DNA of 64,000 bases from Methanosarcina barkeri 3 (lineage in GTDB: Archaea > Halobacteriota > Methanosarcinia > Methanosarcinales > Methanosarcinaceae), in assembly GCF_000970305.1 (NCBI RefSeq), contig NZ_CP009517.1, positions 930,001 through 994,000 of the forward strand, given 5' to 3'. Shown in pieces: positions 30,575 through 47,298 of the stretch; position 1 is the stretch's first letter; the number at the start of each line of letters is the position of its first letter. The position numbers and the translations under genes are program-made. The notes beneath the pieces are model-generated. The model was not told the DNA's origin. It ran no database searches and was given only the letters and a program-made list of their open reading frames with translations.

Positions 30575-32191
30575 TTGGAAAGTAAAGTCCCAAGGAATAA
30601 AGGCTTACAGGATTCGTTTTTGCTCCAGACTCAGACTGCTGCCGTCCTGGAACGAGCCCTCAGGAGTACAGTAGCTTTTCCTCGAACGATCCCTCGCCCA
30701 ATGCGAGAAAAAATAGCCGAAATCATAACCCTTGAGATTCTCTTTGACCAGCCTTATGAGATAAAGGATCCTGAAAGATTTATTGAGACTTTCGGAGCTT
30801 TTTACCCAATCCTTCTTACCCTGAGAAACTCAAAACCCTGGCCTAAACTCCGAAAAATTGCAAAAAAAAGCAAGGGAGCCGGAATTGCAGGCTTGAAAAT
30901 TCTTCTACCTCTTATTTATGAGATCCTTGAACGCTTTTCAGAATCAGCCAGTATTTCAGGTGCAGAGTATCTTAAAGAGCTCGATACAGGAATGAATGAA
31001 ATCCTGAAGCAATTTGAAGAAATTCTGAAAGAGACTCTCCTTATTTGGGGAAACCCGGGATCTGCTGAGTTTTCAGGCAGAAATACCCAGGCCATAGAAA
31101 ATTTCGGAGGATCTGCCCTTGTCAACGCTGTCCTGGAATTCATGCAGAAGGAAGGGTACCAGGACTTGCTGGAAAGAATTCTGGAAGGACTATACCAGAG
31201 TATTAGCGAGTTCATTTCGGAAATGGAAGAAAATCTTGAGCTTTTCGATACCCTTGCTTTGCTTTTTCCCCAGCGAAACTGGAGCTATTCCGTAAAAGAG
31301 CTTAAAAAAGAACCTTTCTATGTGCAGCTTAAAATGCTTAAAAATTATTCGGCTTTCTTTGAAAAAAGCCCTGACCTGAGAAAAATTGTGGATTTTATAG
31401 GCAGGCGGGAATTTGACCCTCCATCGGACCGTATACGCCTTTCACCTTTCGGGAAAAACAAGATCCAGAGCGTGCGCTTTTCCGATTCTATCAATAACCT
31501 GCTTCCCATGGAAGCTGCAAAACTCCTGAACCCTTCCCTGAAAAAGAAATTCTATGCGGATATGCTTGAGGGAAAACTCCTGAGTTACCAGCTCCTTGGA
31601 AAACATTACACAGGCCCTCCTCACATAAAGCCAAGAGGCTCGATGATTGTACTTGTAGACACCTCCGGATCTATGCACGGAGCTCCCCAAACTTTAGCTA
31701 AGTCTGCTGTGCTGGCTATGGCAAAACGGATGCTTTTCCAGCAGAGGGACATAAAAGTTATCCTTTTTGCCTCAACAAGTCAGCATCTGGAAATCGAACT
31801 TAGCAGCAGGAAAAAAATGTCCGAAAAGTTCCTGAATTTCCTGCTATACACCTTTGGCGGAGGAACGGACTTCAATACTGCCCTTGCCTCAGGCCTTAAG
31901 TCCCTAAAAGAAAAAGATTTTCAGGGTGCAGACCTGCTCTTCATAACCGATGGCAAATCCGAAGTCTCTGACGAACTTGTACTGGCCCGCTGGGAAGAAG
32001 CAAAAAAGAAGTATAACGCAAAAGTATACTCGCTGATCGTAGGCAGCAGTGGAGCAGGTGGGCTGTCTGAAATCTCGGATTATACTTATTTTGTAGAAAT
32101 TGAAACGGATTCTGAGGACAGCGGTGGGTTTGTAAGGCTAATCGAACACACGGAACAGAAAATCCCAGCTTCTAATGAAGCCGGAAATTAA
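30575..32191 (+). CDS. ViaA-like von Willebrand factor A protein
   Basis: The C-terminal domain is a vWA fold with an intact MIDAS: LVDTSGSMHG (DxSxS), then GGGTDFN (Thr) and FITDGKSE (Asp). The 340 N-terminal residues are helical, as in ViaA. It lies 302 bp after the RavA-like ATPase, in the order usual for MoxR-vWA pairs, and should bind a metal-dependent ligand or target for that ATPase. The start is uncertain. TTG 30575 is the first canonical start after in-frame stops at 30482-30502, but it lacks a good Shine-Dalgarno. TTG 30623 is an alternative. Confidence 0.85.
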   Translation: MESKVPRNKGLQDSFLLQTQTAAVLERALRSTVAFPRTIPRPMREKIAEIITLEILFDQPYEIKDPERFIETFGAFYPILLTLRNSKPWPKLRKIAKKSKGAGIAGLKILLPLIYEILERFSESASISGAEYLKELDTGMNEILKQFEEILKETLLIWGNPGSAEFSGRNTQAIENFGGSALVNAVLEFMQKEGYQDLLERILEGLYQSISEFISEMEENLELFDTLALLFPQRNWSYSVKELKKEPFYVQLKMLKNYSAFFEKSPDLRKIVDFIGRREFDPPSDRIRLSPFGKNKIQSVRFSDSINNLLPMEAAKLLNPSLKKKFYADMLEGKLLSYQLLGKHYTGPPHIKPRGSMIVLVDTSGSMHGAPQTLAKSAVLAMAKRMLFQQRDIKVILFASTSQHLEIELSSRKKMSEKFLNFLLYTFGGGTDFNTALASGLKSLKEKDFQGADLLFITDGKSEVSDELVLARWEEAKKKYNAKVYSLIVGSSGAGGLSEISDYTYFVEIETDSEDSGGFVRLIEHTEQKIPASNEAGN

Positions 32192-32315
32192 AAAACGTTA
32201 TTAAAAAAAGGTTAATTAAAAAATGTTATTAAGGAAAGGTTAATTAAAAAATGTTATTAAGAAAAGGTTAATTGAAAAAGAGTTATTAAGAGAAAACTAA
32301 TTAAAAAGGATTAGT
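32187..32315. repeat. 27-28-bp tandem repeat after the vWA gene
   Basis: Units of the form AAAAATGTTATTAAGAAAAG followed by GTTAATT are repeated about four to five times with changes, starting at the vWA stop codon. Confidence 0.8.
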
Positions 32316-32413
32316 ATCTCCTCTCTTTCTTTTTCATTTAATTTCCAAACCTTATTCCTTAAGAGCTGTTTACCATTGTCTGGACAGCTTTTACAAACTG
32401 TCAGACTAAATTA

Positions 32414-33820
32414 TTAGACTGAAGATATTTTCTCTGCAGTTTCGGATCCTGCATCCGTTTTTGAAGAGTATTTACTTTCTTTGAAGATCCTGTATATCCT
32501 AAAAAGCATAAACCCGGAAAGCATGAAGGCAAGTGAGTCCGATACCGGAAAAGCTGCCCATACTCCGTTCAGTTGATAGAACTGAGGAAGTAGAACAACA
32601 GCAGGAATCAGAAAGAGGAGCTGTCGGCTAATGGAAAGAAGGAAAGCGGGTTTTGCTTTTCCCAGGGCCTGAAAAAGGGTTGAAGTAATTACATTCATAC
32701 CTATCAAAGGCGTTCCGAGCAACATAATCATTATAGCGTTTTTCCCAAGCTCCAGATATTCCGGATCTGTACTGAATAACCCGAGAAGTTGTTCTTTTAA
32801 GAAATAAATAATAACCAATCCAAGAAGCCCAACGGTCGTTGTTGCTATGAGAGATAATTTCACAGCTTCGGCTATCCGTTCATATTTTTTTGCTCCGTAG
32901 TTGAACCCGACAACCGGTTGCAGACCAAAAGCCATACCCAGGAGGGTCATGAAAATGAAGGAATTAATCTTCATTACTACACCAAAAACGGCGATTGCAA
33001 CATCTCCTCCATAAGTTGCAAGTGCATTATACACAAAAATCATCATGACACTGTTTGAGCATTCCATTATAAAAGATCCGGTACCAATAGCCCCGATTTC
33101 TTTAATGATTTTCAGATCTGGTTTCAAGGTTTCGGCTCTGAAGCGTACAGCTCCTTTTCCTTGAATATAGTATAGCAGAAGCCAGATCGAAGCTATTGTC
33201 TGTGATATTACGGTTGCAATTGCAGCTCCTTTTACACCCATCCCGAAACCAAACATGAAAACCGGATCAAGGAAAATATTGAGGCCGCCTCCTAAAATCA
33301 TAGCATTCATTGCAAGACGAGCATTTCCTTCGGATCTAACAATGTTTTGGACAGCCACCCCAAAGACAAAGACAGTTCCTCCCAGTATTATATATTTCAG
33401 GTAATCTCTGGCATAGGGCAGAACTCCAGCAGTTGCCCCGAAAACCTTCAAAATCGGATCAAGATAATAAAGGCAGGGAATGGCTATAAGTACGCTTAAG
33501 ACCAAACTCAGGGAAAAGACATTTCCAAGAACTCTTTCGGCTTTTTCACTTTCTCGAGCTCCAAGGGCACGTGAAATTATGGAAGAACCTCCTGTCCCCA
33601 GAACAATTCCAAAAGCCATTATTATCATCTGAACCGGAAAAGCTATGGAAAGTCCGCCTATGGCCTGAACACTGTCTGCTCCATAGACCATTCCCACATA
33701 AAAAGTGTCCACAACATTATAGATAGCCTGTACCAGCAGTCCGATGACAATGGGAACTGAAAGTTTAAACAGGAGCTTTCTTATATTGTCTTTGCCAAGA
33801 AATTCACTTTTTTCATCCAT
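32414..33820 (-). CDS. MATE-family efflux transporter, copy 1
   Basis: About 468 residues in twelve transmembrane helices with MatE features: KLSVPIVIGLLVQAIYNVVDTFYVGM at the start, ISRALGARESEKAERVLGNV in the first half and VGFNYGAKKYERIAEAVKLS in the second. MATE proteins export drugs and organic cations in exchange for sodium or protons. It follows a MarR gene by 39 bp, a regulator-pump pair that probably answers a toxic compound. It is highly similar to the copy at 44872. The second ATG (33820) aligns with the start of that copy and is preferred over 33829. Confidence 0.92.
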   Translation of the reverse strand: MDEKSEFLGKDNIRKLLFKLSVPIVIGLLVQAIYNVVDTFYVGMVYGADSVQAIGGLSIAFPVQMIIMAFGIVLGTGGSSIISRALGARESEKAERVLGNVFSLSLVLSVLIAIPCLYYLDPILKVFGATAGVLPYARDYLKYIILGGTVFVFGVAVQNIVRSEGNARLAMNAMILGGGLNIFLDPVFMFGFGMGVKGAAIATVISQTIASIWLLLYYIQGKGAVRFRAETLKPDLKIIKEIGAIGTGSFIMECSNSVMMIFVYNALATYGGDVAIAVFGVVMKINSFIFMTLLGMAFGLQPVVGFNYGAKKYERIAEAVKLSLIATTTVGLLGLVIIYFLKEQLLGLFSTDPEYLELGKNAIMIMLLGTPLIGMNVITSTLFQALGKAKPAFLLSISRQLLFLIPAVVLLPQFYQLNGVWAAFPVSDSLAFMLSGFMLFRIYRIFKESKYSSKTDAGSETAEKISSV

Positions 33821-33868
33821 ATTTTTCATCTCATCCGTTTTTCATCTATGTTCTCATCTCAACCGTTT

Positions 33869-34363
33869 TTACTTCATGTCATCAGGTCTATCCGATGGAG
33901 GCTCAAACCCAGGCTCAAAGAGTTTAATCACAGCTTTATGAATAAGCAGCCTGAAAATCTCAATTTCTTCAAAAGTAAAATCCGAAAAAAGAATAGATAT
34001 GAAAGAAGTCTGCTTTTTAAAAATTATATCTCTCATTTCCTTCCCTTTATCAGTCAGGTAAACCCTGTAAGCTCGAAGGTCACTTTCGTCTCTTTCCCTG
34101 TAAACGTAACCTTCTGTTTCCAGACTCTGGATTGCTCTGGCACTTGTTGCTTTGCTAACTTTCAGGGTTTTTGCAAGAGTTTCCTGGGATATTCCATCTC
34201 TGTGGTACAAAAACAGTAAAAACTCAAACTGTCCGCTTCCAACCCCGTAAGCATCAAGTTCCTTTGCCATGTATGCCACATTGCTCCGGTAGATGTGAGC
34301 AATCGGACCTAATATTTCTCTAGGGTCTATTTCCTTTAAGTCTACTTCTCTAAAACTTCCCAT
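33869..34363 (-). CDS. MarR-family regulator of the MATE operon, copy 1
   Basis: A MarR winged helix is clear: GISQETLAKTLKVSKATSARAIQSLE as helix-turn-helix and a wing VYRERDESDLRAYRVYLTDKGKE. The N-terminus holds REILGPIAHIYRS, the C-terminus a dimer helix and LFEPGFEPPSDR. The regulator and MATE genes are 39 bp apart. ATG 34363 has AAGGA seven bases before; GTG 34378 does not. Two near-palindromes GTTYC-N4-GARAC lie upstream at 34548 and 34597 on either side of a TATA-like box. It is paralogous to the regulator at 46319. Confidence 0.9.
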   Translation of the reverse strand: MGSFREVDLKEIDPREILGPIAHIYRSNVAYMAKELDAYGVGSGQFEFLLFLYHRDGISQETLAKTLKVSKATSARAIQSLETEGYVYRERDESDLRAYRVYLTDKGKEMRDIIFKKQTSFISILFSDFTFEEIEIFRLLIHKAVIKLFEPGFEPPSDRPDDMK

Positions 34364-34948
34364 AAATTTATCCTTCACATTTCAGGAACTGAATGATCAA
34401 TATTGAAATTGAATATATCGAAGTGATAGTTGCATATAAAACAGATTTAATGCCTGGAAGAGCTTATTTTTAGATTTTATATAAACCTGTAATTCACTTT
34501 TATTAGTTTGGAAGATTTGTGTTGATATTGAATATATACATTAAATCGTTCCATATGAGACTATCAACGGCTTAATAGGTTTATGAGTATTTAATAGTTT
34601 CGCATGAGACGAAAATAATATAAAAACGAATTACCCACTAAATCAAAAAATCTGAACCTAATGAATAGCAAGAATTAATCTATTGATAAAGTTATAGTGC
34701 TCAGTAATTGTTTTCTGTCATATAAAATTATACAAAACAATACCCTTAGCCATTAATATCTTTGGTTTAAATAATTAATCTTCCAAGAAACAAGGAAATA
34801 AATCAATAAAAGTTCATATTTGTGTGTATCTGTAGAATATGAAAATTAATTTAATTTCATAGATTAAAAAACGTACCTCAGTTGCTTATGAAACCAAATT
34901 TTAAATATCAATTTACAAATGTTCGTACAAATGCTAAATGATGAAAAT
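34364..34948. other. Upstream region of the MarR-MATE operon
   Basis: No gene is visible. The proximal part contains the paired operators; the distal part (34620-34948) is AT-rich with no clear signals. Confidence 0.4.
34548..34610 (-). promoter_or_regulatory. Paired operator candidates upstream of marR copy 1
   Basis: GTTCCATATGAGAC (34548-34561) and GTTTCGCATGAGAC (34597-34610) share the pattern GTTYC-N4-GARAC, 49 bp apart. Between them, on the minus strand, ATTAAATAC is a plausible TATA box. The same pattern and spacing occur before the second MarR gene (46872-46935). Confidence 0.55.
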
Positions 34949-35143
34949 TCAATCTTTACCTCCCGGACTTAGAGGATCTATTCTGAAAAGCAAGATCACG
35001 AATAATGCAGTTACAGTCCCTGTACCCCAAAAAAATGGGTTTATTGTAATTTTCAGGAGTATGCCTATGATAACTAATAAGATTCCCAACAACAGCAAAA
35101 TTTGGATCTTTTTGCTCAACTCTTTCTCTCCAGTCATCCCCAT
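34949..35143 (-). CDS. Small two-helix membrane protein
   Basis: The product starts MGMTGEKELSKKIQ and continues with two hydrophobic helices separated by a short turn (ILLLLGILLVIIGILLKI, then GTVTALFVILLF), ending with a charged tail RIDPLSPGGKD. No family was recognised. It lies on the same strand as, and 287 bp after, the MacB-like permease of the first ABC set; a 22-bp repeat array touches its start. The start could be either of two nearby ATG codons (35143 or 35137). Confidence 0.5.
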   Translation of the reverse strand: MGMTGEKELSKKIQILLLLGILLVIIGILLKITINPFFWGTGTVTALFVILLFRIDPLSPGGKD

Positions 35144-35146
35144 TTT

Positions 35147-35270
35147 AAATAAGTCAGTAAACAAATAGTGTCAAGACAGTAAACAAACAGTGTTGAGACA
35201 GTAAACAAACAGTGTTGAGACAGTAAACAAACAGTGTTGAGACAGTAAACAAACAGTGTCGAGGCAGTAA
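35147..35270. repeat. 22-bp tandem repeat, five copies
   Basis: The unit GACAGTAAACAAACAGTGTT plus GA is repeated with few changes just upstream of the small membrane protein gene. Confidence 0.9.
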
Positions 35271-35321
35271 GATTATTTTTCACAAAACCTCAATACCAAA
35301 AAAGCAGGAAGTTAAGAAAGG

Positions 35322-35425
35322 AAATTAACCCTTTCTTTTCCATCTTCCTTTCTTTTCCATCTTCCTTTCTTTTCCATCTTCCTTTCTTTTCCATCTTCCT
35401 TTCTTTTCCATTCTTCCTTTCTTTT
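35322..35425. repeat. 17-bp pyrimidine-rich repeat after the permease gene, copy 1
   Basis: CCTTTCTTTTCCATCTT is repeated six times and ends a few bases from the permease stop codon. The second permease gene has a different pyrimidine-rich array in the same place. Confidence 0.9.
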
Positions 35426-35429
35426 CCGT

Positions 35430-36680
35430 TTACTCGTATCTTAGTGCATCAACTGGTTTTAACTTTGAAGCCCTGAACGCAGGGATCACTCCTGAAATCA
35501 CACCTATCAAAACTGCCAGGAGAAGTCCCATGACCATTAGATCAGGAGCAAGGTATAAACCTGAACTACCTCCCCCTCCTCCCATCATCTGCAAACCAAG
35601 CAGAGGGAAGAGAGTTGAAACACAAGCTCCCAGAATATCTCCAAGGATACCACCAACAAGACCAACCATTGCGGAATTAAAGAGGAAAATCATGAGGATA
35701 TCCCTGTTTTTTGCCCCAATGGCTTTCATAGTTCCGATTTCCTTTGTCTTTTCAAGGACTGAGGTAAACATGGTATTTGCAATACCGACAGCTCCTACAA
35801 GCAAGGACACTGCTGCAATGGCACCGAGGAACAGAGTCATTGAACTCGTCATTTCAGTTACGGACTCAGCCATAGATTTAGAAGCTGATACCGAAAAGTC
35901 TCTATCATCATCATTGACAATGTGCCTTGAGATCATGAGCTTATCCACGATATCTTCTGTCAGGTTGTCTACTGCATCTTCACTCTTAGCTTTTACAGCA
36001 ATGGAATCATAAACACCATTTTGTGCATCATCGATCAGGGTTACTGCTCCATCGATAGGCATGTAAATATGTCTGTCACCTTCACCCTCTTCTTCCAGGA
36101 TTCCAACAACGCGCACGGCTTTACCGTTTACGGTTATTACCTGATTAACTCCGATATCCTGGTCATAAATTCCACTTGCAACACCGCTTCCGATAACTGC
36201 AACATACTTATCAGAAGGTTCAAGCAATCTTCCTGATTGTGTTTTTAGTGTAGTCATATACTGCCAGACCTGTGGGTCTACACCTGTGATTGAAAGGGTT
36301 GCATTTTGCGCTGCATATATCACTGGCACACTACCGCTAATCTCTCCTTCTATGTATGATATATTATTCAATCCTCGAAGTGCTGCAATGTCCGTATCCG
36401 TTAATTCGACATCCGTTGTCGTACCTCCCCCTCTTCCTTCACCTCCTGGGCCTCCGGGCATATTCGATGATGCCTTGGAGTATCCTGGACTTATGGTTAT
36501 TTTTGTGAGATCCATCTCGGCAAGCCTGCTCTGAACCTGCTCTTGCATAGCATCCCCGAGGGAGAGGATGCCGACAACAGATCCGATTCCTATAACTATC
36601 CCGATAATGGTCAGCCAGCTTCGGAGTTTACTGTGAACAAGCATGTTCAGACCCATTTTCAGGTATGTTGATTGTCTCAT
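35430..36680 (-). CDS. MacB/FtsX-type ABC transporter permease, copy 1
   Basis: An N-terminal transmembrane helix (SWLTIIGIVIGIGSVVGIL), a large extracellular MacB periplasmic-core-like domain with a Gly-rich loop (GGPGGEGRGGG), and three C-terminal helices of the FtsX domain, whose cytoplasmic coupling segment reads LEKTKEIGTMKAIGAKNRDIL. These permeases pair with LolD/MacB-type ATPases and export or sense peptides and lipoproteins without moving substrate through a classical channel. It is encoded after a COG1361 surface protein and the ATPase. ATG 36680 has GGAAGG six bases before it, so the upstream ATG 36695 is not used. Confidence 0.92.
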   Translation of the reverse strand: MRQSTYLKMGLNMLVHSKLRSWLTIIGIVIGIGSVVGILSLGDAMQEQVQSRLAEMDLTKITISPGYSKASSNMPGGPGGEGRGGGTTTDVELTDTDIAALRGLNNISYIEGEISGSVPVIYAAQNATLSITGVDPQVWQYMTTLKTQSGRLLEPSDKYVAVIGSGVASGIYDQDIGVNQVITVNGKAVRVVGILEEEGEGDRHIYMPIDGAVTLIDDAQNGVYDSIAVKAKSEDAVDNLTEDIVDKLMISRHIVNDDDRDFSVSASKSMAESVTEMTSSMTLFLGAIAAVSLLVGAVGIANTMFTSVLEKTKEIGTMKAIGAKNRDILMIFLFNSAMVGLVGGILGDILGACVSTLFPLLGLQMMGGGGGSSGLYLAPDLMVMGLLLAVLIGVISGVIPAFRASKLKPVDALRYE

Positions 36681-36715
36681 TTTGCATCCTTCCATTCGGC
36701 TAGTAGCGTGTTCTT

Positions 36716-38119
36716 TCAGACCTCCGAATCAGGTTTTTTGTACTCGGATTGTTTACCTTTTCTTGCCTGTATCCTTTCATGTATCTTCTTGCGATAAACG
36801 AATATTCCGCCTGCAAGGACAAGCAGTCCGATGTACGGTAGGTACGAACCGACCCCAGCCCTATTACCTGGACCGCCCGGCCCTCCTGCTGCAGTCATAT
36901 TTCCTGATGTTGTAGTTTCGAGATTAACTTCTTTAGTAACGGTTTCCCTTTCCCCTTTTGCATCCGTGTACTCAATCTGGACCTTCAGTGGATCGGAGGA
37001 ACCTATAGAATTTGAGCTTGCGTTGTTAGCACCAGCTTGCGAAGAATCTGGAGGAGTTCCCGGGCCATTTCCGGTTGTGTTTCCTCCTGCACCACCCTGT
37101 GAATTACCACCCTGTGAATTTGAAACATCAAACGAAGCAATTGTGTAATCTCCTTTCTCCAGATTTCCTACAATTGTTGACGAACTTCCTGAGATTTTGT
37201 ACCCATCTTGATCTGGAATGGATACTTTCACGGCATATGCTATGTTATTACCTACATTTGCAACTGAAAAGGAAGTCTCTCCAGCACTACTTTCCGAAAA
37301 TGAAACATCGAAATCCGTTGTTCCTCCTACAAAAAGTCCTGCTGTGGTCTGAATATTTTTCGAGTTAGAGTCAGCATCTTCATACGAGAGGTTCACGTTT
37401 AAGGTATAAAGTCCTGGAGTAGCGCTTACATCTGCCATTACGGTATAGTCGACTTTTACGGATTGACCCGCTTCCAGATACTTGATATGTTTTGTGTTGT
37501 CGGAGTACACAGGTAAAACCACGCCTTTCGGATCATTCCATGAGAAAACCAGGTTTTTCAGCGGGGAAGTTCCCGTGTTTGTCACAATAAATTCAAGAGG
37601 TTCTTCCTTTGCGATATCAATGTCAGCCTTACTTACGGTTACAACCTGAGCATATTCTTTACCTTGAACCTCTAACTGAATTGTTTTCGTAGTTGTAATC
37701 GTGTTTGACGAGGATCCGCTCTTATAAGTGGTGACAATATCAAGATCATAAGTGCCTTCCGACGCGTTGGCATCGGTCATGAGTTTGAATTTCAGGACTC
37801 CAGCATCATCATCATCCTGTCTCGCATTTAGATAAGAGATGCTCTTTTCAAGGTCTTCTCCGGAAAGTTTACTGAAAGGATATTCCGGATTGAGTGCAAC
37901 CTTTATGTCTTTGAGGTCATCGTTTCCTATATTCTGCACACTGAGAGTAAGTTCAACAGGTTCGCCGGGACGGGCAGTATCAGGGTTTTGATTAGTTACA
38001 TTTACCTGCACAGCGGCAGAGTTTATATTCCCATTTGATCCGCCAAATGCTGTGCCAACTCCCAGGCATAGGAACGTTGAAAGCAGTAGTAAAAATGTTA
38101 ACAAAGAGAATTTTCTCAT
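36716..38119 (-). CDS. COG1361-type surface protein of the ABC operon, copy 1
   Basis: A signal peptide (about 1-27), several CARDB/NEW3-like Ig repeats of the COG1361 kind (RPGEPVELTLSVQNIGNDDLKDI, EEPLEFIVTNTGTSPLKNL and ETSFSVANVGNNIAYAVKV), a Ser/Gly/Asn-rich stalk and a C-terminal helix IGLLVLAGGIFVYRK with a basic tail. It would stand on the cell surface beside the permease. Proteins like this are often encoded with MacB-like ABC transporters in methanogens, probably as substrate-capturing partners. It lies 50 bp after the ATPase gene and 35 bp before the permease. Its core is almost identical to the copy at 42240. Confidence 0.88.
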   Translation of the reverse strand: MRKFSLLTFLLLLSTFLCLGVGTAFGGSNGNINSAAVQVNVTNQNPDTARPGEPVELTLSVQNIGNDDLKDIKVALNPEYPFSKLSGEDLEKSISYLNARQDDDDAGVLKFKLMTDANASEGTYDLDIVTTYKSGSSSNTITTTKTIQLEVQGKEYAQVVTVSKADIDIAKEEPLEFIVTNTGTSPLKNLVFSWNDPKGVVLPVYSDNTKHIKYLEAGQSVKVDYTVMADVSATPGLYTLNVNLSYEDADSNSKNIQTTAGLFVGGTTDFDVSFSESSAGETSFSVANVGNNIAYAVKVSIPDQDGYKISGSSSTIVGNLEKGDYTIASFDVSNSQGGNSQGGAGGNTTGNGPGTPPDSSQAGANNASSNSIGSSDPLKVQIEYTDAKGERETVTKEVNLETTTSGNMTAAGGPGGPGNRAGVGSYLPYIGLLVLAGGIFVYRKKIHERIQARKGKQSEYKKPDSEV

Positions 38120-38169
38120 TTTAATTCCTCAATCCAGATATGATTCGTTTTTTATACTTGGTTCATTTT

Positions 38170-39324
38170 TTATAATTGGTTCGTTTTTATAATTGGTTCA
38201 TCTTCTGCACTTATTTTATTTTCCACGTTTGGTTCATTTTCTATGTTTAGTTCGTTGTCTGTGTTTGGTTTATTTTCTGCGTTTGATTGGTTTTCTGAAC
38301 TCAGTGTATTTTCTGTGTTTGGCTCTTTCTCTGCGTTGAACTGATTTTCTGCACTTGTTTTATCTTCTTTGTTTGGTTCGTTTTCTGTATTTAGTTCATT
38401 TTCCGTATTTGCTTCACTTTTCGAACCTTGACTATTTTTCTGACGTTTTTCAATTTTTTCGATTTCACCGTCTCTAATATACACTACTCTTGTTGCATAT
38501 CTTACAAGCTCGATGTCATGAGTAACAATAATGATAGTCTTACCTTCACTTTTCTGCAGTCCATCAAGAAATTCCAGAATGTAGTCCCCTGTCTTGGTGT
38601 CCAGATTTCCTGTAGGCTCATCTGCAAGGATTATAGGCGGGTTTACAGCCAGGGAACGAGCTATTGCAACTCTCTGTCTCTGTCCTCCTGAAAGCTGGGA
38701 AGGAAGATTTCCTTTTTTATTTGAGAGTCCGACAATATCAAGCAAATAAGAGGCTTTTTGTCGGGCAATTTGTCGATTTTCTTCCTGGAATTCCATGGGT
38801 AAAAGCACGTTTTCTTCCGTGCTCAGAGTGGGAAGGAGGTTAAAACTCTGGAATATGAAACCAATCATCTTTCCTCGGATTATGGCAAGTTCAGACTCGT
38901 CAAGCTCTGAGATGTCTTTTGAATTCAGGGAAACCGTGCCTTTTGATGGGATATCCAGGCAGCCAAGCAGGTTCATCATCGTACTCTTCCCACTTCCGCT
39001 GGGTCCGAGAATTATCAAAAATTCCCCTTCGTAAATTTCCAGGTTTATTCCTTTAAGAGCTGCAAACTCGACCTCTCCCATCTGATAGATCTTCCAGACA
39101 TCGGTCAGTTTGATAAGAGGCTCGTCTTTGTTTTGAGAGATCATTACCGCATTGGAACTGTCAGCAACACCATTTCCGGAATTTAAGTATGGATTGATTT
39201 TCAGATTCCCTTCTGAATCCTCTTCGGATGGATCAGAGAAACTCGCTGCCCCTTCAAGAAAGTTCATCATTTTTGAGGAATTCAATGCCGTTTTAAGAGA
39301 ATCTATTATTCCAGTGAGTGCCAT
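38170..39324 (-). CDS. LolD/MacB-type ABC ATPase, copy 1, with an Asn/Glu-rich tail
   Basis: Walker [10 protein letters not shown], signature [15 protein letters not shown], Walker [13 protein letters not shown] and switch VTHD are all intact. The ATPase core (about 75-290) is preceded by an unusual 70-residue N-terminal extension and followed by about 90 residues of NTENEPN-like repeats that the second copy lacks. The tail is built from short repeated DNA units and may have grown by slippage. It is the first gene of the operon ATPase, surface protein, permease. AGAGG precedes ATG 39324. A TATA box between two palindromes lies about 230 bp upstream. Confidence 0.93.
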
Positions 39325-40411
39325 TATAAAACCTCTAAAAGTTAGTCGTTTTTGAGCTTAACCTTTTTAAGGTTGCTTGAGTTTTTCTTATAATGCATGT
39401 TTCCATCGTTTCCGTGACTTGTTTTATGATGCAGTCAAAACGTTCTTTGATAAATTTTTAAGACTACAATTATATTGTCATACCGATATTAATTGTCAAG
39501 TTTTATGGGTTATCTTCTTAGGCTATTGTATAGGTATAATCGGTCTAATCAGACCATTTATATGGTCCAACTAGACCCTGTGGTTCGATTCGTTTTTGAG
39601 GCCACAGCGAAATGCATAATGCCTCATTTCTGGAGTGCGGGTTTTTTGCTGGCTGCCCCCTTTCCTTATTACAATGGGGAACACCTGATTTTCAAGCGAT
39701 AGGCTTGAAGTTCCTAGTGGCGAGGTTATGTTGGATGTTCCTTTTCAGTTTCCTTTTCCATTGTAATTTACCAAATTGAGCAACTCTTATACGGGGTTGA
39801 ACACCTGTCTGAGATGGGTGTCTGAGATGGGACTGAACACCTATCTAAGATAGAGCATTTTGTCTTCTAGCCTCTCAACAGGATTAGAGGCAGCCGATTC
39901 CTTCATTGGCGTTTAATAATATAAGCATACTTAGCTAAAAATAAGAAAAATCTAGAGAATTAATTTATCAATGAAGCTTTTCTAGAATATATTTACTAAA
40001 TTTAATCTTTAATTACTCTATAAAAGGCGAATAAAGTCTCAATAAAGTATTATTTTACTGAAATTTTATTCAAAAGGAGCTTCAGGCTTAACATAAGAGC
40101 TGTCTCTCTCATCTGATAAATATTCCGAATGGCTGCTCCAAAAACAAAGATGCTCCTGCAATTAGAATTTCAAGATGCCTGTCTAGTGTTAAGTCAGGTC
40201 TCAATTGCCGGATAAAGATATAGGAGACACAAGTCAGGCCAACTTTGGAAAACAAGCAATGTCACTTTTTAAAAACATAAAAAAGTTTTTAACGGTTATG
40301 GTTTTCAAAATTCACGCCATAACCTTTTTTCCTTGTTAGCAGAAAGTCGCTGTTATTCCATTAAGGCAGGAAATAAGAACAAGAAGTCGTCCCTCCCGTT
40401 CCTGTTTATTT
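39325..40411. other. Upstream region of the first ABC operon
   Basis: No gene is supported in this 1.1-kb stretch. Besides the sandwich promoter at 39542-39577 it holds a duplicated GAACACCTGTCTGAGATGGG-like phrase and a palindrome CTATCTAAGATAG near 39841. The rest is AT-rich. Confidence 0.5.
39542..39577 (-). promoter_or_regulatory. TATA box flanked by two 14-bp palindromes
   Basis: GGTCTAATCAGACC (39542-39555) and GGTCCAACTAGACC (39564-39577) lie on either side of ATTTATAT. Read on the minus strand the box is ATATAAAT, which would start the first ABC operon with a leader of about 200 nt. Two dyads 22 bp apart (two helical turns) suggest a dimeric regulator bound on one face and blocking TBP. 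Confidence 0.6.
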
Positions 40412-40553
40412 CTCTCTTTTCTGTTATTCCTTCCTTTTCTGTTTGTTCCTCTCTTTTCTGTTATTCCTTCCTTTTCTGTTTGTTCCTCTCTTTTCTGTTA
40501 TTCCTTCCTTTTCTGTTTGTTCCTCTCTTTTCTGTTATTCCTTCCTTTTCATT
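40412..40553. repeat. 37-bp pyrimidine-rich repeat after the permease gene, copy 2
   Basis: Four copies of a 37-bp unit beginning CTCTCTTTTCTGTTATTCC lie against the stop codon of the second permease gene. Confidence 0.9.
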
Positions 40554-41783
40554 TTATTCGTACCTTAATGCATCCACAGGCTTTAGTTTTGAGGCCCTGT
40601 ACGCTGGTACTACTCCGGAGACCACACCTATCAAAACTGCAAGAGAAAGACCTTCAAGCATCAAAGAAAAGCTTACTCCACCACCTCCTCCAGCCATATC
40701 GCCTCCTACCATCATTTGAAGACCAGATGAAACAAAGGATCCCAGAATAATTCCGAGGATACCACCAACAAGACCCACCATTGCAGAATTGAAAAGGAAA
40801 ATCATAAGGATATCCCGATTTTTCGCTCCAATGGCTTTCATAGTTCCTATTTCCTTTGTCTTTTCAAGGACCGAGGTAAACATGGTATTTGCAATCCCGA
40901 CAGCTCCTACAAGCAGAGATACAGCTGCGATAGCTCCAAGGAAGAGAGTCATTGAACTCATCATTTCAGTAACCGAATCCGCCAACGATTTTGACGCTGT
41001 TACGGAAAAGTCTCTATCATCTTCCTTATTAATGTGCCTTGAGACCATAAGCTTTTTTTCGACTTCTGTAGTCAATTCCTCTACCTGATCTTCACTCTTG
41101 GCTTTTACAGATATGCTATCATAAACATCTCTTTTCGCATCCGTAACAAGGTCCACTGCTCCATCTATTGGCATGTAGATCCTTGAGTCGCCCCCCATGC
41201 CTTCTTCTTCCAGGATTCCAACAACGCGCACTGCTTTGCCGTTTACGGTTATTACCTGGTTAACCCCGATATTCTGGTCATAAATTTCGCTGGCAACACT
41301 ACTTCCTATGACTGCAACATTCTTATCAGCTGGTTCAAGTAATCTTCCTGATTGCGTTTTCAGGGTAGTCATATATCTCCAGACTTGAGGATCAACACCT
41401 GTGATTGGAAGGGTCGCGTTTTGTCCTACATATTTGACTTCTTCTCTGCCTGAAATTTCTCCTTCAATATATTGTATACTATCCAGGCCTCGAAGCGCGT
41501 TAATATCATCTTTCGTTAATTCTGCATCTGTTGATACACCCCCCCCCATACCAGGGCCACGCATGTTGGATGATGCCTTAGTATACCCTGGGCTTATTGT
41601 TATCGTTGTCAGATCCAGATCGGATAGCTTACTCTGTACGTTTGCCTGCATAGCATCTCCCAGAGAGATGATTCCAACTACAGATCCCACTCCTATAACT
41701 ATCCCGATAATGGTCAGCCAGCTTCGCAGTTTACTATGCAAAAGCATGTTTAGACCCATTTTCAGATAGGTCGAGTTTCTCAT
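40554..41783 (-). CDS. MacB/FtsX-type ABC transporter permease, copy 2
   Basis: It has the same layout as the copy at 35430: LRSWLTIIGIVIGVGSVVGII helix, extracellular MacB-like core, and C-terminal FtsX helices with LEKTKEIGTMKAIGAKNRDIL. The coupling region and the last helices are nearly identical to copy 1. The extracellular core and Gly-rich loops differ more (MRGPGMGGGVST here), as do the last 60 residues. ATG 41783 has GGAAGG before it. In contrast to copy 1, a 455-bp stretch with hairpin repeats separates it from the surface protein gene, so its expression may be uncoupled from the upstream genes. Confidence 0.92.
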   Translation of the reverse strand: MRNSTYLKMGLNMLLHSKLRSWLTIIGIVIGVGSVVGIISLGDAMQANVQSKLSDLDLTTITISPGYTKASSNMRGPGMGGGVSTDAELTKDDINALRGLDSIQYIEGEISGREEVKYVGQNATLPITGVDPQVWRYMTTLKTQSGRLLEPADKNVAVIGSSVASEIYDQNIGVNQVITVNGKAVRVVGILEEEGMGGDSRIYMPIDGAVDLVTDAKRDVYDSISVKAKSEDQVEELTTEVEKKLMVSRHINKEDDRDFSVTASKSLADSVTEMMSSMTLFLGAIAAVSLLVGAVGIANTMFTSVLEKTKEIGTMKAIGAKNRDILMIFLFNSAMVGLVGGILGIILGSFVSSGLQMMVGGDMAGGGGGVSFSLMLEGLSLAVLIGVVSGVVPAYRASKLKPVDALRYE

Positions 41784-41892
41784 CTTGCATCCTTCCGTTA
41801 TTTTTTCTTAAGTCTTTTTATCGCACCTTACTTGGCTGCTGAGAACCAACCGTTGACCCGCAACCGTTGCGCCGGTTGATCACGCCGTCGCG

Positions 41893-42150
41893 ATGTTTTA
41901 GATTTAGCAGTGATTTTCGCTCAAGCCTTTTTTGAAAAGGCTTGTGATCACGCCTATAGGGTTTGGGGCTAAGTTTTTTCAAATTCAAACGTTACTGAGG
42001 TTTTCACTCAAGCCTTTTTTAAAAAGGCTTGTGATCACGCCTATAGGGATTGGGGCTAAGGCTCTCAAATCCAAATGTTAACTCGTCGTTTTCGCTCAAG
42101 CCTTTTATTAAAAGGCTTGCGGGCAAGCAGTTTTTTAAAAAGGCTTATTT
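41893..42150. repeat. Dispersed hairpin repeat family, cluster 2, inside the second ABC operon
   Basis: Copies of the CAAGCCTTTT...AAAAGGCTTG hairpin occur at 41928, 42009 (stem partly changed) and 42097, with the flanking phrase GATTTAGCAGT at 41902. These are the same units as at 13214-13440. GTGATCACGCCTATAGGG is repeated between them. Confidence 0.8.
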
Positions 42151-42239
42151 TTCATCCTACGTCTTCTGTTTGTTAGTGATGTTATTTTTTATGATGCTGC
42201 CTTGTTCGGACCTTTGGGTTTTCAGGCTTTGTTCTCGGA

Positions 42240-43787
42240 TTACTTATTTTTTCTTTTCTGCAGTTTTTCCTGGATTTTCTTTCTGTATACGAATAACCCT
42301 CCTGCAAGTGCTAGTATCACAATATAGGATAGGTGTGCCCCAAATCCATTACTCTTGTTGCCTGACCCTCTTGATCCCTGTGCGGTCATATTTTCTGATG
42401 TTGTAGTTTCGAGATTAACTTCTTTAGTAACGGTTTCCCTTTCCCCTTTTGCATCCGTGTACTCAATCTGGACCTTCAGTGGATCGGAGGAACCTATAGA
42501 ATTTGAGCTTGCGTCGTTATCACCAGCTTGCGAAGAATCTGGAGGAGTTCCCGGGCCATCTCCGGTTGTGTTTCCTCCTGCACCACCCTGTGAATTTGAA
42601 ACATCAAACGAAGCAATTGTGTAATCTCCTTTCTCCAGATTTCCTACAATTGTTGACGAACTTCCTGAGATTTTGTACCCATCTTGATCTGGAATGGATA
42701 CTTTTACGGCATATGCTATGTTATTGCCTACATTTGCAACTGAAAAGGAAGTCTCTCCAGCACTACTTTCCGAAAATGAAACATCGAAATCCGTTGTTCC
42801 TCCTACAAAAAGTCCTGCTGTAGTCTGAATATTTTTCGAATTGGAGTCCGAGTTTTCATACGAGAGGTTAACATTCAAGGTATAAAGTCCTGGAGTAGCG
42901 CTTACATCTGCCATTACGGTATAGTCGACTTTTACGGATTGACCCGCTTCCAGATACTTAATATGTTTTGTGTTGTCGGAGTATACAGGTAAAACCACTC
43001 CTTTCGGATCATTCCATGAGAAAACCAGGTTTTTCAGCGGGGAAGTTCCCGTGTTTGTCACAATAAATTCAAGAGGTTCTTCCTTTGCGATATCAATATC
43101 AGCCTTACTTACGGTTACAACCTGAGCATATTCTTTACCTTGAACCTCTAACTGAATTGTTTTTGTTGTTGTGTAAGTCCTTTCTGAAGATCTGGACCCA
43201 CTCTTATAAGTGGTGACAATATCAAGATCATAAGTGCCTTCCGACGCGTTGGCATCGGTCATGAGTTTGAATTTCAGGACTCCAGCATCATCATCATCCT
43301 GTCTCGCATTTAGATAAGAGATGCTCTTTTCAAGGTCTTCTCCGGAAAGTTTACTGAAAGGATATTCCGGATTGAGTGCAACCTTTATGTCTTTGAGGTC
43401 ATTGTTCCCTATATTCTGCACACTGAGAGTAAGTTCAACAGGTTCTCCAGGTCGCGCAGCGTCAGGGCTTTGATTAGTTACACTTACCTGTACAGCTGCA
43501 GAATTTATATTTCCGTTTGATGCACTAAGTGTTGTTCCGGATCTAACCGTATTCGATTTTTGATTAGTTACGTTTTCCTGCACAGATGAAGAACTTATAT
43601 TCCCATTTGATGCGTTAAGTGATGTGTCAGCTCCCAGGTATATACCAGAGCTTTGGTTAGTTAAATTTGTCTGCATAGACGAGGAATTTGTATCAACATT
43701 TGCTGCGCCGAGTGCTGTTCCGACTCCAAGGCATATAAATGCAGAAGAGAACAACAGCATTAATGTTATCAAAGAGAGCTTTTTCAT
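42240..43787 (-). CDS. COG1361-type surface protein of the ABC operon, copy 2
   Basis: Its core (about 95-440) is almost identical to the copy at 36716, including long identical stretches of DNA. The N-terminal part after the signal peptide is longer and made of three repeats of the type SNGNISSSSVQENVTNQ, where copy 1 has one. The stalk is shorter, and the anchor helix YIVILALAGGLFVYRKK and tail differ. The start overlaps the ATPase stop by 4 bp (ATGA). It should be a surface partner of the permease at 40554. The N-terminal repeat difference may alter reach or ligand specificity; that is inference. Confidence 0.88.
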   Translation of the reverse strand: MKKLSLITLMLLFSSAFICLGVGTALGAANVDTNSSSMQTNLTNQSSGIYLGADTSLNASNGNISSSSVQENVTNQKSNTVRSGTTLSASNGNINSAAVQVSVTNQSPDAARPGEPVELTLSVQNIGNNDLKDIKVALNPEYPFSKLSGEDLEKSISYLNARQDDDDAGVLKFKLMTDANASEGTYDLDIVTTYKSGSRSSERTYTTTKTIQLEVQGKEYAQVVTVSKADIDIAKEEPLEFIVTNTGTSPLKNLVFSWNDPKGVVLPVYSDNTKHIKYLEAGQSVKVDYTVMADVSATPGLYTLNVNLSYENSDSNSKNIQTTAGLFVGGTTDFDVSFSESSAGETSFSVANVGNNIAYAVKVSIPDQDGYKISGSSSTIVGNLEKGDYTIASFDVSNSQGGAGGNTTGDGPGTPPDSSQAGDNDASSNSIGSSDPLKVQIEYTDAKGERETVTKEVNLETTTSENMTAQGSRGSGNKSNGFGAHLSYIVILALAGGLFVYRKKIQEKLQKRKNK

Positions 43788-44737
43788 TTTAATTCCTCAT
43801 GTTCATTTTTCTGACATTCATTTTTCTGACATTTTTCAATTTTTTCGATTTCACCATCTCTAATATACACTACTCTTGTTGCATATCTTACAAGCTCGAT
43901 GTCATGAGTAACAATGATGATAGTCTTGCCTTCTCTTGCATGCAGCTCGTCCAGAAAATCCAGAATGTAGTCCCCTGTCTTGGTGTCCAGATTTCCTGTA
44001 GGCTCATCTGCAAGGATTATAGGCGGGTTTACAGCTAGGGAACGAGCTATTGCAACTCTCTGCCTCTGGCCTCCTGAAAGCTGGGAAGGAAGATTTCCTT
44101 TTTTATTTGAGAGTCCGACAATATCAAGCAAATAAGAGGCTTTTTGTCGGGCTATTTGTCGATTTTCTTCCTGGAATTCCATAGGTAAAAGCACGTTTTC
44201 TTCCGTGCTCAGAGTGGGAAGGAGGTTGAAACTCTGGAATATGAAACCAATCATTTTTCCTCGGATTATGGCAAGTTCAGATTCGTCAAGCTCTGAGATG
44301 TCTTTTGAGTTCAGGGAAACAGTGCCTTTTGATGGTATATCCAGGCAGCCCAGCAGGTTCATCATTGTACTCTTCCCACTTCCGCTAGGCCCGAGAATAA
44401 TCAGAAATTCCCCTTCGTAAATTTCCAGGTTTATTCCTTTCAGGGCTGCAAACTCGACCTCCCCCATCTGATAGATTTTCCAGACATCGGTCAGTTTGAT
44501 AAGAGGCTCGTCTTTATTTTTTGATATCTTTATACCATTAGAGCTTTCAGCAGAATTATTTCCGGAATTATTTCCAGAATTAAGATATGGGTTATTTTTC
44601 AGATTCTCCTCCAAAGTATTTCCCTCGGAATCATTTTGAGATTCATCATAGAAACTCGCCTTTTTTTCGAGTGAGTCTATAAATTTCGAGGGGCTAAGCT
44701 TTGTTTTAAAAGAATCTAGTATTTCACTAAGTGTCAT
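43784..44737 (-). CDS. LolD/MacB-type ABC ATPase, copy 2
   Basis: Walker [28 protein letters not shown] and VTHD are all intact. From NKDEPLIKL to GEIEKIEK the protein is almost identical to the copy at 38170, while the N-terminal 80 residues differ and the long Asn/Glu tail is replaced by a short [11 protein letters not shown]. It overlaps the surface protein gene by 4 bp. It lies 134 bp after the MATE gene on the same strand, so MarR, MATE and ABC genes could form one transcript. A hairpin AAAAGCTTA/TAAGCTTTT (44755-44787) sits between them, just upstream of the Shine-Dalgarno AGAGGG. Confidence 0.93.
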
Positions 44738-44871
44738 ACTTACCCTCTAAAAGCTTAGTCATGTCTGAGATAAGCTTTTTTAATGAACATAAATCCAATT
44801 ATATTTTTATGCATATTATATTGCTTTCGTTAACAGTCTTGTGGTATGGTCTGAACATCTTTTATGAGATA

Positions 44872-46278
44872 TTAGATGGAAGATATTTGATCTGCAGTTT
44901 CAGACCCTGTGGCTGTTTTTAAAGACTCTTTATATTCTTTGAAAATTTTATAGACCCTGAGAAGCAGGAACCCGGAAAGCAGAAACGCCAGAAAGTCCGA
45001 TACCGGAAAAGCCGCCCAAACTCCGTTGAGTTGATAGAACCTGGGAAGGAGGGTAACAAGAGGGATAAGGAAAAGAAGCTGCCGGCTAATTGAAAGAAGG
45101 AAGGCTGGCCTGGCTTTTCCTAAGGCCTGGAACAGGATTGATGTGATAACGTTCATACCTACCAGAGGCATCCCCAGAAGCATTATCGTTATAGCATTTT
45201 CTCCAATCTCCAGATACTGCGGATCTGCACTGAATAATCCGAGAATTTGTTCTTTGAAAAGTAAAATGATCAGCAGGCCAAGGATCCCAATAGCCGTTGT
45301 TGCTGCAAGCGATAATTTCACAGCCTCTGCTATTCTGCCATATTTTTTTGCTCCGTAATTAAACCCGACAATCGGCTGCAAGCCAAAGCCCATACCCAGG
45401 AGGGACATGAAAATGAAAGAGTTAACCTTTATTATTACACCAAAAACGGCAATTGCGCCATCTCCTCCATAAGTTGCAAGTGCATTAAACACGAAAATCA
45501 TCATGAAACTGCTAGAGCACTGCATTACAAAAGACCCAATGCCTATGGCCACAATTTCCTTAACAATTTCCAAATCGGGTTTCAAGGTTTCTGACCTGAA
45601 ACGAACAGCTCCTTTTCCTTTGAGGTAGTACAACAGGAGCCAGACCGAAGCTATGGCCTGTGATATTACAGTTGCAATTGCAGCTCCTTTTACACCCATT
45701 CCGAAACCAAACATAAAAAACGGGTCAAGGAAGATATTAAGGCCGCCTCCTACAAGCATGGCATTCATTGCAAGGCGAGCATTTCCTTCAGATCGGACAA
45801 TATTTTGGACAGCCACCCCAAAGACAAAGACAGTCCCTCCCAGTATTATATATTTAAGGTAATCTATGGCATAGGGCAGGACTCCAGCAGTTGCTCCGAA
45901 AACCTTCAAAATCGGATTAAGATACAAAAGGCAGGGAATGGCTATAAGTACGCTTAATATCAAACTTAGGGAAAAAACATTTCCAAGTGTTCTTTCGGCT
46001 TTTTCATTTTCTCGAGCTCCAAGGGCACGTGAAATTATGGAAGAACCTCCTGTTCCGAGCATAATTCCAAAAGCCATCACCATCATCTGGATCGGAAAAG
46101 CTATTGAAAGTCCGCCTATAGCCTGGACGTCATCTGCTCCGTAGACCATTCCCACGAAAAAGGTATCCACTACGTTATAAATAGCCTGAACCAGCATTCC
46201 GATAACAATAGGAGTTGAAAGCTTAAACAGGAGCTTCCTTATGTTCTCTGTACCAAGAAAAGCACTTTTTTCATCCAT
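44872..46278 (-). CDS. MATE-family efflux transporter, copy 2
   Basis: 468 residues in twelve transmembrane helices. It is closely similar along its whole length to the copy at 32414 (KLSTPIVIGMLVQAIYNVVDTFFVGM, ISRALGARENEKAERTLGNV, VGFNYGAKKYGRIAEAVKLS). It is preceded by its own MarR gene (40-bp gap). Unlike copy 1 it is followed by the ABC export genes on the same strand. GGAG precedes ATG 46278 by eight bases. Exported compounds cannot be deduced. Confidence 0.92.
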   Translation of the reverse strand: MDEKSAFLGTENIRKLLFKLSTPIVIGMLVQAIYNVVDTFFVGMVYGADDVQAIGGLSIAFPIQMMVMAFGIMLGTGGSSIISRALGARENEKAERTLGNVFSLSLILSVLIAIPCLLYLNPILKVFGATAGVLPYAIDYLKYIILGGTVFVFGVAVQNIVRSEGNARLAMNAMLVGGGLNIFLDPFFMFGFGMGVKGAAIATVISQAIASVWLLLYYLKGKGAVRFRSETLKPDLEIVKEIVAIGIGSFVMQCSSSFMMIFVFNALATYGGDGAIAVFGVIIKVNSFIFMSLLGMGFGLQPIVGFNYGAKKYGRIAEAVKLSLAATTAIGILGLLIILLFKEQILGLFSADPQYLEIGENAITIMLLGMPLVGMNVITSILFQALGKARPAFLLSISRQLLFLIPLVTLLPRFYQLNGVWAAFPVSDFLAFLLSGFLLLRVYKIFKEYKESLKTATGSETADQISSI

Positions 46279-46318
46279 ATTTTAATCTCCATCGTCTTTA
46301 CCTTGATCGTTTTTTACC

Positions 46319-46807
46319 TCAATCGTCTGACCTATCCGATGGAGGCTCAAACCCAGGCTCAAAAAGTTTAATCACAGCTTTATGAATTAGAAGCCTGAAA
46401 ATTTCTTTTTCTTCAAAGGTAAAACCCGAAAAGAGAATATCTGTAAAAGCAGTCAACTTCTTAAAGATTATATCTCTCATTTCCTTTCCTTTATCAGTCA
46501 GGTAAACCCTGTAAGCTCGAAGGTCGGTTTCGTCTCTTTCCCTGTAAACATAACCTTCTTCTTCCAGACTCTGAATTGCTCTGGCACTTGTTGCTTTGCT
46601 AACCTTCAGTTCCTTTGCAAGAGTTTCCTGGGATACTCCGTCTTTGTAGTATAATAATAGTAAAAACTCAAACTGTCCGCTTCCGACCCTGTAAGCTTCA
46701 AGTTCCTTTACCATGTACGCCAGATGGCTCCTGTAGATGTAGGCAATAGGGCCTAATATTTCTCTTGGGTCTGTTTCTCTTAAGTTTCCTTTTCTTTGGT
46801 CTTCCAT
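46319..46807 (-). CDS. MarR-family regulator of the MATE-ABC operon, copy 2
   Basis: Paralogue of the regulator at 33869: GVSQETLAKELKVSKATSARAIQSLEEE helix-turn-helix, wing YRERDETDLRAYRVYL, and the same end LFEPGFEPPSDR. The DNA-contacting helix is nearly identical to that of copy 1, so the two should read the same operator and could cross-regulate. ATG 46807 has AAGGATA seven bases before it. Operators of the shared pattern lie at 46872-46935. It is the first gene of a likely five-gene operon (MarR, MATE, ATPase, surface protein, permease). Confidence 0.9.
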   Translation of the reverse strand: MEDQRKGNLRETDPREILGPIAYIYRSHLAYMVKELEAYRVGSGQFEFLLLLYYKDGVSQETLAKELKVSKATSARAIQSLEEEGYVYRERDETDLRAYRVYLTDKGKEMRDIIFKKLTAFTDILFSGFTFEEKEIFRLLIHKAVIKLFEPGFEPPSDRSDD

Positions 46808-46871
46808 AATTTTATCCTTCACATTTTATGAGCTGGACGGCTTGTTTTTTAAATAAACTATTATAAAAATC

Positions 46872-46935
46872 GTTACAAATGGAACTGGTCCGACCTCTAT
46901 AGGCTTGTGATGTATATAATAGTTCCGAATGAAAC
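46872..46935 (-). promoter_or_regulatory. Paired operator candidates upstream of marR copy 2
   Basis: GTTACAAATGGAAC (46872-46885) and GTTCCGAATGAAAC (46922-46935) match GTTNC-N4-GRAAC, 50 bp apart. The minus-strand TATA-like TTATATAC lies next to the distal one, as before copy 1. Confidence 0.55.
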
Positions 46936-47049
46936 TAAACTTAAATGCAAAATAACTGACCAATGCTTCGATTCCAAAATTAGTTTCTTATTTTTTGGAA
47001 AAAATCCATGATCTTCGGGTCTATTAAAAAAGTCAAGTTTAAGAACCTA

Positions 47050-47107
47050 CTTCAGAATTGCAGTATTAGTTTCGTAGGAATTCGTGCTTTCGAACCGCAC
47101 CCCTCGA
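47050..47107 (+). pseudogene. 3' fragment of a tRNA-Leu gene (CAG anticodon type)
   Basis: TTTCGTAGGAATTCGTG followed by CTTTCGAACCGCACCCC matches the long variable arm and the T arm of archaeal tRNA-Leu. GTGC and GCAC still pair around the TTCGAA loop. The preceding CTTCAGAATTGCAG looks like a damaged anticodon arm with TTCAGAA as loop. Neither the acceptor stem nor the D arm can be found. Confidence 0.45.
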
Positions 47108-47216
47108 ACTAAGTTTCTTAATATATTAACTTTAAATTCAATACTTCTTTACAGAAAAAATTTATATTAAAGTTTATAATAAGTTAATAAAGGCTATTCA
47201 TTTGCAATCTCGAGAT

Positions 47217-47298
47217 GCAAGGATTGCCAATAAGGTCAAAGGCTCTAGGTTGAGGCCTGATTTCGTAGGAGTTCCTGGGTTCAAATTTGATTCCTTGT
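47217..47298 (+). pseudogene. Decayed tRNA-Leu gene (GAG anticodon type)
   Basis: Acceptor arms GCAAGGA and TCCTTGT pair at all seven positions (one G-T). TTGCC...GGTCAAAGGC is a type II D arm, CTAGGTTGAGGCCTGA a damaged anticodon arm with GAG, TTTCGTAGGAGTTC the long variable arm, and CTGGGTTCAAATTTGAT a T arm whose stem no longer pairs. The order is right for tRNA-Leu but the T stem and anticodon stem are broken, so it is a pseudogene. Confidence 0.6.

Follow-up and report, generated by a model that had tools for sequence, protein, structure and literature searches.

The window analysed here is a stretch of 64,000 nucleotides (nt), positions 930001-994000 of the 4.56 Mb genome of Methanosarcina barkeri 3, which is a single contig. 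It contains a cluster of 11 open reading frames (ORFs), all on the minus strand, in the order MarR2-MATE2-ATPase2-surface2-permease2 and then ATPase1-surface1-permease1-small-MarR1-MATE1. If M denotes the MarR-MATE pair and X the ATPase-surface-permease set, the cluster reads M2-X2-X1-small-M1. On balance it is probably best explained as two kinds of module that were joined at one chromosomal site, wired differently and partly homogenised by gene conversion. The transporters and the regulator belong to known kinds and are ordinary; the notable part is a candidate leader RNA upstream of X1 together with an apparent promoter swap upstream of X2.

The 1.2-kb spacer before ATPase1, which carries a conserved promoter block and the leader, is about 80% identical among M. 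barkeri 3 and the genomes G003, G029 and G013 (genomes are designated by G numbers and loci by L numbers), and 22 of the 30 genomes of the genus that formed the search sample have a part of it. X2 has no X leader, and ATPase2 follows MATE2 after a gap of 134 nt. Leader and promoter precede the ATPase gene in 22 of the 27 X units not located directly behind MarR and the leader in none of the 11 X units behind MarR or MarR-MATE (Fisher p 3.6e-6, the counts being uncorrected for shared ancestry). These counts use 38 of 45 ATPase rows; left out were G018 L080 and G026 L078 with too little upstream DNA, two unrelated ABC genes, and three outgroup ATPase rows, in which no leader was found. Among the 11 MarR-linked units MATE is absent in G007, where another ORF lies between, and in G022. 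In the 60 nt directly preceding the ATPase gene the two classes are 64.7% alike versus 42.7% further up (11 x 9 sequences), as would be expected if the upstream region had been replaced; the X1/X2 pair of M. barkeri 3 taken alone lacks this contrast (51.7% vs 56.7%). Outside the genus X is preceded by the leader in G035, G036 and G037 and by the promoter part in G080 and G093.

According to the earlier note on this DNA, five genes, with MATE and MacB-like export among them, were linked under one regulator. As X2 is leaderless behind MarR and X1 has its own promoter and leader, such control is plausible for M2-X2 only and is unsupported for X1. An 18-bp palindrome close to TAGTTTCATNNGAAACTA in sequence precedes 31 of 32 MarR genes with a score of 14/17 or more, G003 MarR1 (12) being the exception; in 26 of the 32 loci the two highest-scoring sites are separated by 49-54 bp. 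None of 44 ATPase upstream regions exceeds 12/17, so that a MarR operator directly before X was rejected; because some of these MarR loci had also served to derive the consensus, the ATPase upstream regions are the fair control. In the whole genome four palindrome sites with ≤ 2 mismatches were found, two of them in the cluster, and a control pattern gives two. MarR1 and MarR2 share the segment SKATSARAIQSLE, so cross-regulation is possible. Both regulators have the features of a local repressor, namely the winged-helix domain (PF01047 over cut-off) and a palindrome, the predicted operator, at their own promoter. Operons with MarR-type local repressors, such as marRAB and mexR, likewise have a winged-helix MarR gene first, a transporter next and a palindrome near the promoter; the present loci differ in having two palindromes about 51 bp apart, an archaeal TATA-type promoter and, in some genomes, an ABC operon that follows.

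The leader appears to be a structured RNA. Each of the 22 leader cores in the alignment (119-331 nt) folds more stably than its dinucleotide shuffles, with z from -1.66 to -6.95. Two helices are common to them, one that closes the element (P1) and a terminal hairpin (P4), with an interior that varies in length. P1 and P4 pair in 97.5% of 280 alignment cells, and sliding the partner by 1-3 columns reduces this to 27-45%. Double-sided changes occur in seven cells belonging to three pairs, and seven cells were reached by 0 of 500 shuffles. P1 is missing from the minimum-energy fold in three sequences (G009, X3 of M. barkeri 3 and G005), and the counted P4 is missing in G004 and in X3 of G029, both of which have a second hairpin copy. 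A search of the 30 genomes for the P4 motif with ≤ 2 mismatches gave 17 places (control 0), each coinciding with a leader. Rfam (4227 families) gave no match at gathering score in positions 31000-48000 and none at E up to 5 in 39300-40100, and assignment of the leader to a known RNA family was rejected on this ground. A conserved reading frame is not claimed, as a mostly conserved ATG starts short frames which, by eye, vary in length and sequence. After the leader core, at 39542-39577 on the minus strand, there is a 16-bp perfect or near-perfect hairpin, in which the changes in G003 and G029 mostly keep pairing, as judged by eye. Small RNAs (sRNAs) of Methanosarcina mazei such as sRNA162 are likewise reported as candidate regulatory RNAs in Methanosarcina (PMC3510493); the leader differs from sRNA162 and from the Rfam families in being tied to X operons and in matching no Rfam family.

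Several points weigh against the proposed explanation, one being that the above counts are uncorrected for shared ancestry. Five of the 27 X units not following MarR are also without the leader, and an orphan leader copy with no X behind it was found in G008 (L110 2446-2824). The promoter part also stands before unrelated small secreted Lys/Trp-rich proteins in G001 and G006 (L096 3469-3529; L108 4737-4797), which hints at a shared envelope-related regulon. A weak promoter may lie within the 134-nt gap between MATE2 and ATPase2. Covariation in the leader is modest, three double-sided pairs being reached by 32 of 500 shuffles, and most within-genome X pairs have no conversion of the surface gene.

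The strongest alternative regards the element before X1 as a separate non-coding RNA gene or as a regulatory region acting at DNA level only. The orphan copy in G008 speaks for it, as does the gap of 137-375 nt that separates the end of the element from the start of the ATPase gene in 21 of the 22 units (the value of 493 in G002 reflects an incomplete match start). However, all other cases examined lie upstream of X on the same strand, and a stable fold with 97.5% pairing in P1 and P4 would be needless for a pure DNA element; this alternative is considered rather unlikely.

The gene-conversion component of the preferred explanation was resolved at informative sites, defined as those where X2 of G003 equals X2 of G029 and both differ from X1 of M. 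barkeri 3. Surface2 is surface1-like at 243 of 306 such sites and orthologue-like at 63, and the converted stretch of about 1.1 kb (surface2 coding sequence (CDS) nt ~270-1400) stops sharply before the membrane anchor. ATPase2 is a mosaic of 56 X1-like and 41 orthologue-like sites, and permease2 is unconverted, with 10 X1-like vs 139 orthologue-like of 149 sites. The direction from X1 to X2 is indicated by surface1, which is 81-95% identical to surface1 of G003 in most windows, compared with mostly 67-80% for surface2 against surface2 of G003. Sixteen within-genome pairs of complete X units were compared with 512 between-genome pairs (7 of 40 surface rows without a neighbour gene were omitted), and the surface minus permease identity was +13.0 here, +8.8 in G002 and +5.6 in G001 for within-genome pairs, compared with a mean of -3.5 (standard deviation 3.8, maximum 8.6) between genomes. 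The paralogues of G003 and G029 hold ATPase windows 97-99% identical, which suggests that the ATPase core was homogenised there too. A search for the tract in G025 and G027 found only a distant third X, 74% identical over the surface part; the contigs of both end at the tract edges, so that assembly collapse of near-identical copies is likely.

It is improbable that surface2 and part of ATPase2 were instead acquired from another species. Related sequences do exist in several Methanosarcina, and the surface copies of G013 are 84-93% identical to those here, but the best full-length match of surface2 is its own-genome counterpart surface1 (91%, against 86% for the next), and a similar pattern affecting ATPase and surface genes and sparing the permease is seen between the own copies of G002 and G001. 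Conversion between neighbouring copies, as preferred here, has a parallel in the mtrA duplicates of methanogens, neighbouring paralogues likewise reported to be kept alike by gene conversion (PMC4632066); as a difference, each unit here is converted in part only and the permeases stay distinct. The mosaic suggests that the surface ectodomain and the ATPase core are interchangeable parts, and the surface anchor may stay matched to the permease.

The repeats X2/X1 and M2/M1 resemble each other far above chance (aligned 300-nt pairs are 78-96% identical), and the paralogous proteins share 80% identity for the permeases and 84% for the MATEs. Nevertheless, MATE1, MATE2, MarR1, MarR2, permease1 and permease2 are each placed by the trees among genes from other species. 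The approximately unbiased (AU) test, applied to the pairs fixed beforehand by the earlier note, rejects own-genome sister pairs for MATE (p 7.8e-4), permease (p 1.6e-5) and MarR (p 1.6e-8). The phylogeny that was named in advance as speaking against duplication, with pairs that are not each other's closest relatives, was thus obtained for these three; the surface pair is closest only because the surface2 stretch was overwritten from surface1. Surface1 and surface2 of M. barkeri 3 are sisters with bootstrap 94 and 84 in the Shimodaira-Hasegawa-like approximate likelihood ratio test (SH-aLRT), surface2 of G003 and G029 stands in another clade, and forcing own surface2 with these two is rejected with p 5.1e-9 for this group, which was picked after the tree had been seen. 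The duplication and internal rearrangement suggested by the earlier note, taken as a recent tandem event that involved one MarR-MATE-ABC unit, is favoured by the pairing and proximity of all five gene types and by long stretches of the ATPase and surface copies that are 93-99% identical, but it is very improbable and was dismissed on the trees, the AU tests and synteny, since G003 and G029 share the order with each copy tracking its own position and the high identity is limited to a tract with edges inside genes. The outline of duplication and rearrangement survives as an old event, before the split of several species, and such an ancient duplication is compatible with the explanation by joined modules.

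In the search sample a surface homologue (E ≤ 0.001) was found in 28 of 30 genomes and a MarR match (E ≤ 1e-15) in 27 of 30. The complete M-X-X-small-M order, whose occurrence in other Methanosarcina had been suggested as a check, is present in two further complete genomes, G003 and G029 (L024, L025), and G025 and G027 have the same order in pieces, with contigs ending inside the ATPase or surface gene. The chromosomal site lies between a VWA gene (30575-32191) and genes near 48709 and 49228; at the same site M stands without X in G005, G017 (only the VWA side is seen) and G028, and M-X-X' in G012. G013 provides the pieces M - permease2 tail - X1 and X1 end - small - MATE tail - X2, in which the permease2-ATPase1 spacer and the MATE-ATPase2 junction are recognisable. 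With the order of the G013 contigs assumed, a simple reading would be an ancestral M-X2-X1-small-M-X2 array followed by differing deletions. In L042 (5267-6640) an ORF resembling, by eye, an HNH-type nuclease lies between MarR and X in the usual place of MATE.

The positions of the features are collected in the table. The ORFs and Pfam, which gives MarR, MatE, ABC_tran, NPCBM_assoc/NEW3 and MacB_PCD plus FtsX, bear out the gene order and labels of the earlier note; its extent of the cluster is corrected at one end, the MarR2 ORF starting at 46822 and not at 46807.

Features of the MarR-MATE and ABC cluster (positions are those of the window)
Feature	Positions	Strand	Basis
MarR2 regulator	46319-46822	-	PF01047 E 1.2e-13
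MATE2 exporter, DinF-BH-like	44872-46278	-	PF01554; TIGR00797 232.8 bits (cut-off 147.4); 5c6o E 1.3e-106
ATPase2 of X2, mosaic (X1-like and X2-orthologue-like sites)	43784-44737	-	PF00005
Surface2: signal peptide, Ig-like ectodomain, C-terminal anchor	42240-43787	-	PF10633
Main gene-conversion tract from surface1 (approximate edges)	42388-43518	-	221/234 sites surface1-like in CDS bins 270-1349, 17/57 beyond
Permease2, MacB/FtsX type	40554-41783	-	PF12704, PF02687
Conserved X promoter block with TATA-like element	39888-39984	-	before X units across genus
Structured leader RNA core of X1 (P1 to P4), candidate	39593-39916	-	fold z -2.84 for core; z -4.43 for 39540-39910; alignment A5
ATPase1 of X1	38170-39324	-	PF00005; Walker A, LSGGQ, ADEPTG
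Surface1	36716-38119	-	PF10633; structure model
Permease1, MacB/FtsX type	35430-36695	-	PF12704, PF02687; 5gko E 1.8e-35
Small 71-aa membrane protein	34949-35164	-	also in G003, G029, G013, G025, G027
MarR1 regulator	33869-34378	-	PF01047 E 1e-12
MATE1 exporter, DinF-BH-like	32414-33829	-	PF01554 E 4.1e-55; 5c6o E 1.8e-105
Predicted MarR operator O1 upstream of MarR2, TAGTTTCATTCGGAACTA, abutting TATA-like stretch	46920-46937	-	0 mismatches to pattern
Predicted weaker second MarR operator O2, 50 bp downstream of O1	46870-46887	-	12/17 positions
Weaker predicted MarR1 operators	34595-34612, 34546-34563	-	2 and 3 mismatches

The closest solved structure for both MATEs, with full-length similarity, is the DinF-type MATE BH2163 (5c6o); each holds two PF01554 stretches, and the TIGR00797 scan, which covered MATE2, gave a score above cut-off. 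The NVVD motif of the cluster MATE aligns with Asp40 of the DinF-BH chain, a residue with a role in proton coupling. The differences from DinF-BH are the archaeal host and the pairing with a MarR gene. By their sequences MATE1 and MATE2 are DinF-like members of the MATE family, for which proton- or sodium-driven drug export is predicted.

The best NCBIfam matches of the X ATPases are LolD and MacB, with 141.9-221.6 bits to PRK10535, below the 966 bits of the MacB equivalog, and permease1 is nearest to the solved structures of MacB (5gko) and of the ABC permease of 5xu1; hydropathy of the permeases gives one and then three hydrophobic segments. X thus shares with the type VII (MacB/LolCD/FtsEX) exporters, including MacAB-TolC, the Streptococcus 5xu1 permease and LolCDE, a LolD/MacB-class ATPase adjoining a MacB_PCD plus FtsX permease. 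It differs from MacAB in that ATPase and permease are encoded by separate genes and in that the third subunit is an anchored NEW3/immunoglobulin (Ig)-like protein instead of MacA. Hydropathy of the surface protein is consistent with a signal peptide and an anchor, and in the surface1 model (mean predicted local distance difference test 68) some three beta-sandwich domains lie between an N-terminal and a C-terminal helix. No solved structure was found to be related to surface1 by sequence (best E 0.91), and Foldseek with the model returned at least 50 matches, generic tandem Ig-like proteins with query TM-scores of 0.16-0.27, from which no homologue is claimed. A role as MacA-like adaptor was rejected, because Pfam places none of the 11 cluster proteins in an HlyD/MacA-type adaptor family and the model has no helical hairpin. 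X is accordingly a predicted MacB-type ABC exporter in which a membrane-anchored Ig-like surface protein replaces the MacA-like adaptor, a variant also found in distant archaea (L019-L021). The small 71-amino-acid ORF has two hydrophobic stretches and no Pfam family.

Further observations concern sequence details of the X genes. The surface2 ORF overlaps the ATPase2 stop, and 93-nt tandem repeats (43459-43735) make an N-terminal segment threefold in surface2 and single in surface1; surface2 of G013 is also extended. The Gly-rich last extracellular permease loop (~40650-40720 and ~35510-35600) is the most divergent window in 7 of 7 paralogue pairs, with 52-58% nt identity. Directly behind permease2 lies a tandem array with a unit of about 18-19 or 37 nt (40392-40558), and shorter related arrays occupy the same place in G003 and G029. 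Repeats of about 88 nt between surface2 and permease2 (41914-42148) were rejected as part of the system, since their core has 18 dispersed copies genome-wide and is an ordinary interspersed repeat.

Taken as a mechanism, the explanation by differently wired modules would run as follows. M and X modules would have been brought together at one chromosomal site. In M, MarR would bind its own promoter through the paired palindromes near the TATA element, and a toxic ligand would release it, so that repressor and DinF-like MATE most likely form a ligand-released efflux switch; nothing in the sequence points to bile-like compounds, which the earlier note had named for expression tests. X is most likely an ATP-driven envelope machine acting via its surface subunit. 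X2 would have lost its own promoter and be read from the MarR promoter, as suggested by the lack of a leader, the small distance to MATE2 and the repeated occurrence of X behind MarR, and X1 would have kept the ancestral X promoter with a structured RNA leader that may set X1 expression. Later gene conversion from X1 to X2 would have replaced the surface ectodomain of X2 and some stretches of its ATPase, leaving permeases, MATEs and MarRs distinct.

For the Methanosarcinaceae as a whole we tentatively raise the possibility that a widespread MacB-like envelope ABC system is controlled by structured leader RNAs of a new class, with a conserved promoter of their own, and that this control was repeatedly swapped for MarR control when such a unit was captured behind MarR or MarR-MATE. 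Literature searches gave no paper on the cluster, the leader or the mutual exclusion of leader and MarR, with most subscription papers outside their scope and no claim made of absence from print. To our knowledge, few examples of natural leader RNAs that regulate archaeal genes have been described. The present one would be a candidate in methanogens that are amenable to genetics, and a single genome allows the same ABC operon to be compared with the RNA (X1) and without it, behind MarR (X2).

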